Shown here: positions 36,648-62,127 of the stretch, in pieces | Position numbering within the stretch: the stretch's first letter is position 1 | How the letters are laid out: each line of letters starts with the position of its first letter | NCBI RefSeq assembly: GCF_009796785.1 | Contig: NZ_CP047026.1 | Location: forward strand, 1,510,001-1,574,000 | Direction: 5' to 3' | DNA from: Polaribacter sp. L3A8 | GTDB lineage: Bacteria > Bacteroidota > Bacteroidia > Flavobacteriales > Flavobacteriaceae | Length of the DNA: 64,000 nt | The notes under the pieces: generated by a model | What the model was told of the DNA's origin: nothing | Database searches by the model: none | The model's input: only the letters and a program-made list of their open reading frames with translations | Translations under genes and position numbers: made by a program

Positions 36648-37803
36648 TTGACATATCCAACAATATTTTTAGAACAAAAAACTCATAGAAAAGAACTTCG
36701 ACTACTTTTAAAGTTTTATTACAACAATACACTTATTGAAGTAACAAGAAAATTAGATGGTGCTCAATGGAGTAAAACGCTACATAGTTGGCACGTTAAG
36801 TACAGTGAAGAAAACTTAGCTCTTGTTCTAAAAAATTTTAAAGATTTAACAAATATAAATTTAGACAAACTTCCTAAAAAAGGTTTGTTTAAGAGAAATT
36901 TAACCACTGAAGAAAAGAAACTTCTTAATAATTTTTATCTTTTTTTAAAAGGAAAGAGATATAGTAAAAGTACAATACAAACTTATACTTTTTTTGTTGC
37001 TGATTTTGTTAATTTCCATACAAAAAAAACTTTAGAAGAACTTACCAATAGAGATGTGGAACTTTTTATTGAAAAAGTATTTATTGAACGTAATTATTCT
37101 GTTAGTTCTCAAAGACAGTTTATTAGTGCGTTAAAAATTTTTATTATTTTTTATCCGCACACAAAAATTAACAACCTTGTATTAGAAAGACCTAAAAAAT
37201 CTAGAAAACTCCCAAGTGTATTATCGCAAGAAGAAGTTTTAGCTATTATACAAATTACTCAGAATTTAAAACATAGAGCTATTTTGGCTTTAATTTATTC
37301 TTGCGGATTACGTATAAGCGAGCTTATTAATTTAAAGTTAACCGATTTCTATTTAGAAAGAAAACAACTTATTGTAAAAAACGGAAAAGGGAGAAAAGAC
37401 AGATATGTTAGTTTAGCTGATAGTTTTTTACCACTATTAACTAACTATTACCATTCTTACAAGCCCAAGATCTACTTTGTTGAAGGACAAAATGAAGGAA
37501 AATATAGTACAGAAAGTGTACGTCAGTTTTTAAGGAGAAGTTGTTTAAAAGCAAATATTAAAAAAGTTGTAACCCCCACACACACTGCGACATAGTTATG
37601 CGACTCATTTATTAGAAAATGGTGTAGACATAAGATATATACAATCACTTTTAGGCCATGCAAAACCCGAAACCACCATGATTTACACTCATGTAAGAAG
37701 AAAAGACTTAATGGAAATACAAAACCCGTTAGACATTGCTTTACAGAAAATAAACAAGCATGATAATGAAAAGAAAAAACTTTTATTATCCGGAAGAATT
37801 TAA
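36648..37803 (+). CDS. Xer-like tyrosine recombinase of the cassette array (one frameshift)
   Basis: The TTG start at 36648 is the only candidate after the in-frame TGA at 36639. An extra C in the run at 37573-37577 shifts the frame; with four Cs the protein is 384 aa, ending at 37803. It has an extra N-terminal region (1-80), a core-binding domain (85-180) and a catalytic domain with R222 (SCGLRISE), K247 (GKGRKDR), H311 and R314 (PHTLRHSYATHLL), H337 (LLGHAKPETT) and Y346 (MIYTHV). The R-to-H spacing is about 89 residues, like XerC/D; IntI1 has about 131 because of its diagnostic insertion. The gene reads toward the array, with the first cassette 34 bp after its stop. The homopolymer shift may be a sequencing error, and the full catalytic set suggests a working enzyme. 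Confidence 0.85.
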
Positions 37804-37820
37804 CCGATAATCAATATATT

Positions 37821-37845
37821 TGATTGCATATAACCAGTTGCCAGT
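37821..37845 (+). other. attI-like junction between recombinase gene and first cassette
   Basis: TGATTGCATATAACCA is followed by GTTGCCAGTA, where TTGCCAGTA is the start of cassette 1. The flank CATATAACCAGTT resembles the right arm of the cassette sites (CATATACAACAACGTT) but no palindrome lies to its left. This is what a primary attachment site would look like after a cassette has been inserted. Confidence 0.6.
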
Positions 37846-37892
37846 AATGCGAGAAAAATTTAAAAAGTTTCCATATAATTCAACTTTTTTGT

Positions 37893-37900
37893 TATCTTTG
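37893..37900 (+). promoter_or_regulatory. Cassette-borne promoter -7 element of the TA cassette
   Basis: TATCTTTG fits the Bacteroidota TAnnTTTG -7 element, 27 bp before the toxin start, with a weak TTT upstream. It recurs at 46779 and 50624 in the other two TA cassettes. Each TA unit therefore probably expresses itself, independent of any array promoter. Confidence 0.6.
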
Positions 37901-37926
37901 CCAGAGTAAAACGACAATAGAACTGA

Positions 37927-38259
37927 ATGAAACCAAAATTTGAAGTAGTATTTCTTGAACAAGCAATTGACTTTATGTCCAAATTAGACTCGAAAGCTAA
38001 AAAGAAAATCTATTACAATTTAGACAAAGCGAAACTTGAAAATGACCCAAAACTGTTTAAGAAATTAGCAGATGGTATTTGGGAATTTAGGACGCTTTAT
38101 AAAGGAATTCAATACAGACTATTTGCTTTTTGGGACAAAACTGACAAAACAGAAACACTTGTTTTATCAACACACGGAATGATTAAAAAAGTGAGTAAAG
38201 TTCCCAAATCGGAAATTGAAAAAGCATTGAAAATTAGAGCAGAATATTTTGACGAATAA
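37927..38259 (+). CDS. higB: RelE/HigB-type toxin (Gp49-like), copy 1
   Basis: The 110-aa protein is basic, with the RelE-fold Gp49-like pattern: FLEQAIDFMSKLDSKAKKKI, then GIWEFRTLYKGIQYRLFAFW and VLSTHGMIKKVSKVPKSEIE. Relatives cleave mRNA on the ribosome. The toxin gene precedes the antitoxin gene, the HigBA order, within cassette 1. Identical copies lie at 46813 and 50658. Toxin-antitoxin cassettes are thought to stabilise large integron arrays, and the same role is plausible here. Confidence 0.88.
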   Translation: MKPKFEVVFLEQAIDFMSKLDSKAKKKIYYNLDKAKLENDPKLFKKLADGIWEFRTLYKGIQYRLFAFWDKTDKTETLVLSTHGMIKKVSKVPKSEIEKALKIRAEYFDE

Positions 38260-59756: not shown

Positions 59757-59757
59757 C

Positions 59758-59889
59758 TGTAGCTAACACCGTATAAACTTTATTGCTGGTTTTGGCTCAC
59801 TTGGGAAATTCCTTCGGAATTTCGCCGTTCGTGTTTTATTTACTAAATTCACTGCTTAAACAACGCAACAAAGCTTATACAACAACGTT
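59758..59889 (+). repeat. attC-like site 22 (ABC, copy 2)
   Basis: Same as site 3 up to TACAACAACGTT, then GGCAGTAATT (RT cassette) instead of GCCAAAAACT (nc4). Confidence 0.85.
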
Positions 59890-59909
59890 GGCAGTAATTT
59901 GAGAAAAGA

Positions 59910-61928
59910 ATGAACATTGAACATTTATTGAATAAAGGATATTTTCCTAAAGAGCTTCCGCCATCATTCTTTACTGAATTATTTGGTAACGATTTTACGA
60001 ATATATCGGCATTAGCTGATTCGACCAAAAATGCAAGTTTAACGGCATTGCAGAATTCTGTTAATACTATGACAGGTCTATCCAGACCTGAAAAAACAGA
60101 AAAAAAAGTTAGATTAAAACAAATCTTTAAAAATCGACTAAACTATTCAGATTGTAGCCAATTTAATATTCCAAAAAGTGGAATAGCAAGAAAAATAATT
60201 AAAATACCAAACCCAATTCACCAAGGTAAATTATCCCAAGCAATTGTGGACAATTATACAGAGATTGCAAAACTATTTAATGATTCTAATTTATCAACTA
60301 CGAAACCACAAATTGAGACTGAAATTGAACAAAACAAACGTTCAGTAAAACACAATGATTTTAGTTTCTTTAAAGAATCGGGCATAATAAACTCTTTTAA
60401 ATATGCTGTTCAATTAAAAACTGATATTGCAAAATTTTATCCATCAATTTATACTCATTCAGTTCCTTGGGTAACATTTGGAGGAAAAGATAAATACAAA
60501 AGGAATCGAGCGTTAAGTAATACAGACCCATTAAAGGTAAGTAATATTTATGGAGATGATATTGACGATAGACTTATGTGGTGTCAAAATCAGCAAACAA
60601 TGGGAATACCTATTGGTCCAGATACTTCATTCATAATAGCAGAAGTAATTGCTTGTCATATTGATAAACATCTTGAAAAAAAACTAAAATCAAAAAATAT
60701 AGATTTTCTTGGTTATAGATACTATGACGACTATGCTTTATATTTTAATTCGGAGTTAGATGCTCAAATAGGACTATCAGAATTGAAAAAAATTCTAAAT
60801 GATTTTGAGTTAAAAATTAATGATGAAAAAACAGAGATTTCAAGAACACAAAGTGAATTAGAAAAACCTTGGGCACTTGATATAAAATCATTTTATTTTA
60901 GACCATCTGAAAATGACCAAAAGGATGACATATGGAATTTCTTCTCTATTGCTTTTAGACACGCACAAGAAAACCCGAAAGATAGCGTACTAAAATTAGC
61001 TTTAAATAAATTTAATTTTGTTCGTATTGAAGAGGAAAATTGGGATTATTTTGAATCTTTGCTCTTTAGACTTGGTTTAATTGAGACAAGTTCTTTAAAT
61101 AAAATTGCCAAACTATTAATTACTTACGAAAAATTAGTTTCAAAGAAACGCTTAAAAGAATTTTGCTTCGAAATCATCAAAAGGAACTACGAAAATCAAC
61201 ACGATTTTGAACTGACTTGGTCGCTTTGGATTTTAAACGAATTTAAAATTCAACCAACCAAAGATATTTATGAAATGGTTTTTAAAAGTAAAAGCGTTAC
61301 AGGAATTATTGTTGGACTTGACTTATTTCAGCAAAATAACAGAATTAAGAACTTTGATTTCACTTCAGTTACTGAAATGATTAATACGGACAATTTAAAT
61401 AATAAAGAATGGCTTTTAGCTTATGAAACAGTTTATAAAAATTGGATACCGACTTTAAGTAAATCAATTATTCAAGACCATTTCTTTTTTAATATTTTGG
61501 AATCTCGAAATATATATTTTTACAACAATTCGAGAAAATTAGAACCTTTAAAAGTAGAAAGGTCATACCTCAAAAAAATTGAAACGAAACTCAAGCAAAT
61601 AACAACCTACATATCTAAAAACAAATTTTCTAATACAGAATTAAAAAGTGAGCTTATAGAATTAAGTGAAAATTTGAATTTGACTGACTTAACTCAAATT
61701 ACAGACCGAAAAGAAATTCAAAAAAAGCTATCAGACTCTGATTCGAAAATAAAAGAACTGATAGATAAAATAGAAGCAGTAAAACTTGAATTGAAAAAAT
61801 TCGATAAGAAAAAACCATATTTTGTAGTTGGTAAAAGACTTGAAGAACTTTCTGAATTAACAAGTAAGGAAATTGAAGCAGAAGCAAAACAAAATAAAGG
61901 TTTATTATTCGACCCAACGTATGAATAA
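59910..61928 (+). CDS. Abi/UG-type reverse transcriptase, intact copy
   Basis: The 672-aa protein has an RT core: LKTDIAKFYPSIYTH with the first catalytic Asp at 172, MGIPIGPDTSFIIAEVIACH at 231-250, and the YYDD box in GYRYYDDYALYFN (catalytic Asp 273/274), then LNDFELKINDEKTEI. No maturase, endonuclease or integrase domain follows. The C-terminal ~370 residues are helix-rich, as in abortive-infection RTs (AbiK/AbiA/UG groups), many of which protect against phage. I cannot assign the exact DRT class by eye. It is alone in the 2.2-kb cassette 23. The start at 59910 follows the cassette boundary by 22 bp. The copy at 41429 is frameshifted. Confidence 0.88.
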   Translation: MNIEHLLNKGYFPKELPPSFFTELFGNDFTNISALADSTKNASLTALQNSVNTMTGLSRPEKTEKKVRLKQIFKNRLNYSDCSQFNIPKSGIARKIIKIPNPIHQGKLSQAIVDNYTEIAKLFNDSNLSTTKPQIETEIEQNKRSVKHNDFSFFKESGIINSFKYAVQLKTDIAKFYPSIYTHSVPWVTFGGKDKYKRNRALSNTDPLKVSNIYGDDIDDRLMWCQNQQTMGIPIGPDTSFIIAEVIACHIDKHLEKKLKSKNIDFLGYRYYDDYALYFNSELDAQIGLSELKKILNDFELKINDEKTEISRTQSELEKPWALDIKSFYFRPSENDQKDDIWNFFSIAFRHAQENPKDSVLKLALNKFNFVRIEEENWDYFESLLFRLGLIETSSLNKIAKLLITYEKLVSKKRLKEFCFEIIKRNYENQHDFELTWSLWILNEFKIQPTKDIYEMVFKSKSVTGIIVGLDLFQQNNRIKNFDFTSVTEMINTDNLNNKEWLLAYETVYKNWIPTLSKSIIQDHFFFNILESRNIYFYNNSRKLEPLKVERSYLKKIETKLKQITTYISKNKFSNTELKSELIELSENLNLTDLTQITDRKEIQKKLSDSDSKIKELIDKIEAVKLELKKFDKKKPYFVVGKRLEELSELTSKEIEAEAKQNKGLLFDPTYE

Positions 61929-61932
61929 AAAC

Positions 61933-62127
61933 TACTGCCAACAATGTATATAAAACATAGCTAGGATAGGCTTTCCGAAAGGTTTTTGCTTATTTGCGAA
62001 GTCCGCCAAATTTTTAAATTTGACTTTTAAGATTGATAAGTTAAAAACAAAATCTAAAAATTCGGCTCATTGCCCAACCCAAAATTATTTTAACTTTAAC
62101 ACGCTACGTTTCATATACGGAGACGTT
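61933..62127 (+). repeat. attC-like site 23, long form (RT, copy 2)
   Basis: Same as site 5, 195 bp, ending GGAGACGTTGGC. Cut point inferred after G62125. It is the last recognisable complete site of the array. Confidence 0.82.

Follow-up and report, generated by a model that had tools for sequence, protein, structure and literature searches.

Can an integron be run by a tyrosine recombinase other than IntI? The question is raised by a locus of Polaribacter sp. L3A8, at which a Xer-like recombinase gene is followed by a long row of units that each end in a palindromic site. The locus was analysed in a stretch of 64,000 nucleotides (the window; positions 1510001–1574000 of the 4.22-Mb single-contig genome), which an earlier prediction (the original prediction) had taken for a Bacteroidota integron with a Xer-like recombinase, or for an equivalent system that evolved independently. 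Among natural platforms for gene capture, integrons are the best known. Sites found beside homologous recombinases support the earlier reading: the locus is very probably a chromosomal integron-like platform that works like an integron, with recombination itself being predicted, and by the tests made on its sequence the system does not belong to the IntI integrons.

In the proposed mechanism, a XerA-like tyrosine recombinase would cut the folded bottom strand of the cassette sites at G^TT, and circular cassettes would be inserted by it at attI and also excised. We infer all three elements of this scheme: the reaction by this recombinase family, the folded single bottom strand as substrate, and the excised circles. 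A search of the PMC full-text literature (preprints and most subscription journals lie outside this scope) turned up no account of a cassette array associated with this recombinase in flavobacteria. Published sources are cited by PMC number and from excerpts.

Array extent and cassette structure

As had been predicted, a row of head-to-tail units bounded by GTT follows the recombinase gene. Twenty-four G^TT junctions were located, the attI junction at 37837 and the others from 38735 to 62125, enclosing 23 units (644–2238 bp) of 12 distinct types (Table 1). The end that had been placed at 62127 did not hold up: an insertion interrupts the next cassette, and sites continue to genome position 1591755, with another at 1599159, giving at least 37 sites in total. 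A covariance model of the site (R1) gave 36 matches between genome positions 1548608 and 1599159, the same strand being used throughout; these matches omit the two long window sites (cassettes 5 and 23), which R1 scores at 39.8 bits. With a threshold of E 0.01, 56 matches were obtained in the whole genome, 36 from the array region and 20 scattered. The scattered chromosomal places carry single or paired sites, perhaps cassettes at secondary sites. Cassettes without an open reading frame (ORF) are frequent, as had been noticed before: 9 of the 23 contain no ATG-initiated ORF of at least 60 amino acids (aa).

Since an integron cassette is linearised from a circle at G^TT, its first bases must pair with its own 3' R'' rather than with the R'' of the next cassette. 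Each of the 23 window cassettes starts with 9–10 nt that can pair with its own 3' site, compared with 3–7 nt for the next cassette. Over the 12 distinct types the own-end complementarity sums to 115, compared with a permutation mean of 51.5 (maximum 87; 0/20,000 as high). Better pairing with the own start than with the next one was also found for 42 of 47 cassettes from the continuation of the array and from seven further loci. Positions 4–14 were then scored in 53 distinct cassettes (66 before repeat removal; L077 cassettes and two L072 cassettes touching N runs, all part of the 47, omitted; bottom-strand wobbles scored as pairs): 9.83 of 11 positions are paired with the own start and 6.23 with the next, the shuffled mean being 6.04 (0/5,000 as high), and at position 11, 46 of the 53 have a bottom-strand T.G wobble. 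According to the excerpt of PMC2727003, self-pairing extends to 9–11 nt in most integron cassettes.

Across 14 pairs, copies of one cassette type are 99.4–100% identical and show a single mismatch altogether. At 23 of 28 copy edges the agreement reaches only 1–7 bases past the G^TT junction; at the remaining five (12, 15, 29, and twice 60 or more bases) the neighbouring site or cassette is alike. Cassette order is reshuffled between copies (3-4-5 versus 21-22-23). Units that move as closed circles would be expected to show just this combination of own-end pairing and copies ending at G^TT. The pairs 1/14, 3/22, 5/23, 8/15, 8/17, 9/18 and 10/14 differ almost only by length changes of 1–4 bases in all, several of them in single-base runs, which suggests residual sequencing error in the assembly.

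Cassette-site hairpin

The sites run from R'' (nnnnAAC) to GTT and measure 132–135 bp; one of the 12 types is longer, at 196 bp. A 20-pair stem was drawn by hand for 14 sites, which also served to build R1: three from the continuation and one for each of 11 window types (all but the long one). In these 14 sites the stem is formed in 98.2% of alignment cells (slid controls 34–55%), with nine pairs changed on both sides. For 134 R1 matches from 27 loci, an alignment that was fitted to R1 and hence leans toward the stem, 98.5% of cells are paired (slid controls 31–54%) and 15 of the 20 pairs are changed on both sides. Bottom-strand G.T occurs in 448 stem cells versus 5 for A.C, the latter corresponding to G.T on the top strand. 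When each site was joined to its own start, the bottom strand was predicted to fold more stably in 12 of 12 types. In 11 of the 12 types the predicted bottom-strand fold has 3 unpaired nt, confined to one arm; the long type has 6 and 3 nt.

According to PMC2727003 (excerpt), the extrahelical bases of attC sit on the R''-L'' arm. In the alignment as read, no unpartnered (extrahelical) base was seen on this arm, and conserved G.T pairs are present in the stem. The motif GTTRRRY fits one of the nine distinct R boxes. An Rfam scan of window positions 36000–64000 returned no family at gathering score.

attI-like site and sites beside recombinases in other genomes

The first junction lies directly behind the recombinase gene, as predicted, with 33 nt rather than 34 separating the stop codon from the junction G. 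The attI test covered 31 of the 38 recombinase loci that have a site; the first junction was located from the R'' of the first site alone, and the window's own locus is off in stop distance owing to the frameshift described below. ATATAACnnG^TT stands just before the junction in 26 of these 31 loci, the junction lies 27–42 nt past the stop codon in 25, and the complementary run at the first junction is 9–10 nt long in 26.

The original prediction had staked its reading on other genomes having these sites next to the recombinase, and they were found there. Of 58 homologous recombinases, 32 have R1 sites in the 1.5 kb downstream, namely 19 of 30 in Polaribacter (the window's own included) and 13 of 28 in other genera; none of 30 XerD loci used as a control has such a site beside it. 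They lie downstream and in one orientation, the exception (L031) being a weak other-strand match (E 0.006) that overlaps a better one. In a scan of nine loci in named genomes with flanks of up to 10 kb, arrays were found downstream of the recombinase in six and upstream in none. The six belong to Polaribacter filamentus, Polaribacter sp. Hel1_85, P. marinus and P. glomeratus, a Winogradskyella metagenome-assembled genome, and Tenacibaculum aquimarinum. The distant locus L076 has no site, and the sequence of L071 stops 150 bases past the match.

A family member with 42% identity was observed on a Chryseobacterium sp. SNU WT5 plasmid (NZ_CP041688, 14974–23669; L077), followed downstream by weak sites (32.8, 30.9 and 22.1 bits, the last with E 0.14); this copy may mean that the system is mobile. 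Upstream of the window recombinase, positions 36184–36229 read like the 3' end of a tRNA; ARAGORN called no tRNA gene in the window. The homology between the window and the genome with the closest intact recombinase (G547, see below) starts at this stretch, a possible attachment-site remnant.

Recombinase

The single tyrosine-recombinase gene that had been predicted is present, although not as one open frame: it falls into two pieces in different frames (Table 1). The first piece is 92% identical to an intact homologue of 384 aa, and most homologues among the matches listed are of about this length. R222, K247, H311, R314, H337 and Y346, which we take to be the catalytic residues, are invariant in an alignment of 41 recombinases. 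The best relatives in PDB by sequence are XerA (5hxy, 4a8e). A Foldseek search with a model of the intact homologue (mean predicted local distance difference test score 84.7, predicted template modelling score 0.62) returned XerA chains at the top and IntI4 at rank 6. About 85 extra N-terminal residues take up a predicted alpha/beta fold in this model; five such N-terminal stretches gave no Pfam match above cut-off, only weak ones below, and HARP, considered as a candidate, was not matched in them.

The assignment as Xer-like rather than IntI was borne out by the missing insert, an integrase model whose cut-off was not reached, and the position in trees. The stretch corresponding to about 197–249 of IntI1 is absent from the family; compared with IntI4 (2A3V), 23 residues replace 66. 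Of the 40 insert positions (IntI1 197–220 and 234–249), at most 5 are filled in any of 36 relatives versus 40 in 11 IntI proteins. Three intact relatives score 202–209 bits with TIGR02249, the integron integrase model (cut-off 265 bits; IntI1 control 508.6). With NF040815, the XerA family model (cut-off 220 bits), intact relatives score 217.0, 218.1 and 220.9 bits and the plasmid relative 221.5 bits. Viral contigs supplied 80 recombinases, with a bimodal distribution of the insert: 52 have it and 28 lack it.

Two trees were calculated, and in both IntI forms one clade with this family outside it, at thin sampling. In the first (36 relatives, 12 IntI) the family is a clade sister to IntI. The second, made by a quick method, kept 17 of the 36 relatives and added the 28 insert-less and 16 of the 52 insert-bearing recombinases from viral contigs; here the family is a group among insert-less recombinases with 2 changes, by which one origin is not shown. 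A sister relation to IntI is not claimed, as it is unclear in the enlarged tree, where one member (L082) fell outside the group.

Spread and turnover

The covariance-model search proposed with the original prediction was performed with R1. At E 1e-4 the site was detected in 53 of 58 Polaribacter genomes, in 162 of 199 Flavobacteriaceae genomes (161 of 198 genera) and in 31 of 296 genomes of a phylum sample. One much-sampled genus of the family (g128) is mostly negative, with a match in 3 of 17 genomes listed. Per-genome counts are lower bounds, up to 59 candidates (Polaribacter) or 17 (family) having been scored per genome under stricter filters. The recombinase was matched at E 1e-45 in 121 of the 199 family genomes; 112 have both, 50 sites only, 9 the recombinase only and 28 neither (Fisher p 1.1e-6, uncorrected for kinship).

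The array content differs in G547, the genome with the closest intact recombinase (100% match of P0003, a Polaribacter butkevichii entry). It aligns with window positions 36184–37843, that is, recombinase and attI, at 88–91%, the stretch from stop codon to junction differing by one base, and is not collinear afterwards (matches listed, at least 300 bases). Beyond attI, 84 sites on a single strand were counted in the 80 kb examined; of 83 cassettes, 76 pair better with their own start, 6 equally and 1 worse, and 33 have no ATG-initiated ORF of 60 aa. When the 23 window cassette bodies (sites removed) were compared with G547, only the ORF-less types 4/21, 8/15/17 and 9/18 matched, cassette 4 at nine places over more than 80% of its body with a best identity of about 91%.

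Comparison with known systems

With the IntI integrons (class 1, Vibrio chromosomal) the locus shares a tyrosine recombinase with attI adjoining its gene, head-to-tail cassettes in one orientation, the G^TT junction, a palindromic site with a bottom-strand bias (here by prediction and covariation), a variable end and cassette-end self-pairing. It differs from them in that the recombinase lacks the IntI-specific insert, has an extra N-terminal domain and is encoded by a gene that reads towards the array, in R boxes that mostly depart from GTTRRRY, in G.T pairs that replace the extrahelical base, and in its many ORF-less cassettes. In class 1 integrons the recombinase gene points away from the cassettes; the opposite orientation occurs in a spirochaete integron. 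XerA is the closest solved relative by sequence and fold, and XerA, XerC and XerD have no insert either; these Xer recombinases act on double-stranded dif-type sites.

IntI is defined by an additional domain at patch III, the profile of which is required by IntegronFinder (excerpt of PMC9668308); a lineage lacking this domain would be missed by that program. Reported Bacteroidetes integrons are that of Salinibacter ruber M1 and, earlier, only In0 (excerpt of PMC9024848). The former belongs to the same phylum, or to its former bounds, and differs in having been called by IntegronFinder, which would not call this recombinase family as IntI. The 11 taxon models of attC given in the excerpt of PMC8352920 include none for Bacteroidota.

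HattCI pipelines predicted attC sites close to methyltransferase genes of the Polaribacter phage P12002L (PMC9892861), and the excerpt describes no recombinase for this cluster. R1 finds one site elsewhere in that phage (L079), away from the annotated methyltransferase genes. It appears to close a single cassette, from 14503 to about 15197 on the minus strand, whose complementary start was read by eye. Phage P12002S was considered for an empty-site comparison and rejected, since the same cassette is present there.

Weighing of the evidence

A number of observations weigh against an active, enzyme-driven array. The window recombinase is frameshifted in the assembly, and no second intact copy was found in the genome. 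The first junction is weak in 5 of 31 loci (run of 3–6 nt), and one locus (L011) has no attI motif. No site lies within 1.5 kb in 11 of 30 Polaribacter and 15 of 28 other-genus loci, some of these at contig ends, or within 10 kb at L074. The 50 family genomes with sites and no recombinase match also count here. Of the 47 cassettes outside the window, 2 pair better with the next cassette and 3 equally well (two of the five in N runs), and one cassette of the continuation, 3639 bp long, has no pairing to its own start. In G547, the 3.8 kb upstream of the conserved block are also unlike the window (matches listed, at least 300 bases), so that the recombinase/attI block itself may have moved. In two of 34 viral contigs examined (L166, L220), sites lie upstream and point away from an insert-less recombinase. 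The layout of these two contigs is that of class 1 integrons.

If the frameshift is real, the array would be a relic that no longer moves, which is possible, though we lean somewhat away from it. The two frames and the missing second copy favour this, and nearly a third of intI genes were pseudogenes in a 2008 survey (excerpt of PMC2426708); the array of this strain may thus be frozen. The near-identity of the cassette copies points instead to recent movement, and their differences, one mismatch in 14 pairs and otherwise length changes of 0–4 bases per pair, suit residual sequencing error, which is possible for the frameshift too, since several cassette copies differ by just such short changes. 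It is very improbable that the Xer-like gene is a bystander and that a canonical IntI elsewhere built a cassette cluster without an enzyme of its own. The genomes with sites only would fit such a history, and IntI1 has recombined one Polaribacter phage attC (excerpt of PMC9892861), apparently a different site from the one described here; what links the array to the Xer-like gene is their adjacency and the conservation of the attI motif. TIGR02249 was matched in none of the 199 family genomes at E 1e-40, a weak point and no proof of absence, as 14 control genomes were also unmatched.

An ordinary but divergent IntI integron is equally hard to credit. The integron plan is identical, the trees place this family, like IntI, outside the XerC/D branch, and some relatives carry the NCBI name "site-specific tyrosine recombinase/integron integrase"; against this stand the nearly empty insert positions in all 36 relatives, the TIGR02249 scores below cut-off, the single fitting R box, and the R''-L'' arm on which no extrahelical base was seen. 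Least credible of all is tandem duplication with homologous recombination between repeats and no site-specific enzyme. Many near-identical repeats are indeed present, but their order is reshuffled, most copies end at the junction, and duplication offers no reason for own-end complementarity. An integron-like platform run by the neighbouring recombinase is the reading retained. We consider it moderately likely that it represents a second integron lineage, in which attC-type folded-strand recombination would be performed by a XerA-like enzyme without the IntI domain, and which would be old, common in Flavobacteriaceae and extend to other Bacteroidota, plasmids and phages. The trees leave room for an independent origin as well as for an older insert-less integron lineage.

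Cassettes and cargo

The coordinates of all features are collated in Table 1. The Gp49/helix-turn-helix pair, present in three copies, is read as toxin-antitoxin-like. In five other array stretches, 51 of 52 ORF-bearing cassettes read with the array, and 11 of 63 cassettes have no ORF. ORF-less cassettes of about 480–680 bp form a family with repeated GGAATTT/C motifs (window 40755–41406, 45422–46723 and 47622–48295 with their copies; L230–L233 in G547). It accounts for 26 of the 33 ORF-less cassettes of G547, including the most-copied cassettes there, and for 10 of the 11 in the five other stretches; its window members have no Rfam match. These cassettes may have a non-coding function or be selfish.

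Table 1. Features of the recombinase locus and its cassettes (window positions; "site from" gives the first position of the cassette site).
Feature	Position	Strand	Description
Recombinase gene, first open piece	36648..37595	+	315 aa, TTG start; extra N-terminal domain, SAM-like domain, first half of catalytic domain
Recombinase gene, second piece, different frame	37573..37803	+	76 aa, C-terminal catalytic residues; gene frameshifted in assembly
attI-like site, ...ATATAACCAG^TT	37804..37839	+	junction G at 37837; motif also downstream of homologous recombinases
Cassette 1	37838..38735	+	Gp49-like + helix-turn-helix pair, toxin-antitoxin-like; site from 38608
Cassette 2	38736..39590	+	231-aa ORF (TTG start), no function assigned; site from 39463
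Cassette 3	39591..40754	+	ABC-ATPase cassette (disrupted frame); site from 40628
Cassette 4	40755..41406	+	no ORF; site from 41280
Cassette 5	41407..43640	+	reverse transcriptase cassette (disrupted frame); long site from 43451
Cassette 6	43641..44566	+	141-aa ORF, opposite strand; site from 44440
Cassette 7	44567..45421	+	copy of cassette 2; site from 45294
Cassette 8	45422..46065	+	no ORF; site from 45937
Cassette 9	46066..46723	+	no ORF; site from 46597
Cassette 10	46724..47621	+	copy of cassette 1; site from 47494
Cassette 11	47622..48295	+	no ORF of 60 aa; site from 48168
Cassette 12	48296..49894	+	442-aa WG-repeat protein; site from 49768
Cassette 13	49895..50568	+	copy of cassette 11; site from 50441
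Cassette 14	50569..51468	+	copy of cassette 1; site from 51341
Cassette 15	51469..52113	+	copy of cassette 8; site from 51985
Cassette 16	52114..54348	+	GmrSD-type restriction protein; site from 54222
Cassette 17	54349..54993	+	copy of cassette 8; site from 54865
Cassette 18	54994..55647	+	copy of cassette 9; site from 55521
Cassette 19	55648..56502	+	copy of cassette 2; site from 56375
Cassette 20	56503..58068	+	esterase-like 476-aa protein; site from 57943
Cassette 21	58069..58720	+	copy of cassette 4; site from 58594
Cassette 22	58721..59887	+	copy of cassette 3, 219-aa ABC ATPase frame open; site from 59761
Cassette 23	59888..62125	+	copy of cassette 5, 672-aa DRT6/DRT4-like reverse transcriptase frame open (506 bits); long site from 61936
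Cassette 24, start	62126..64000	+	interrupted by two-ORF transposase-like insertion (62372–62683, 62734–63579; named by reading only)

Significance

If the system works, cassette arrays are present in many flavobacterial genera, one genome having 84 sites in 80 kb, and the cargo, in the window array, includes toxin-antitoxin-like and anti-phage genes. If a second lineage is confirmed, integron recombination would be able to do without the IntI-specific insert, which is regarded as essential to it, or would have a substitute for the insert, perhaps the extra N-terminal domain. The recombinase family would then represent either an independent origin of integrons or a state that preceded the gain of the insert, and the origin of integrons would become directly testable.

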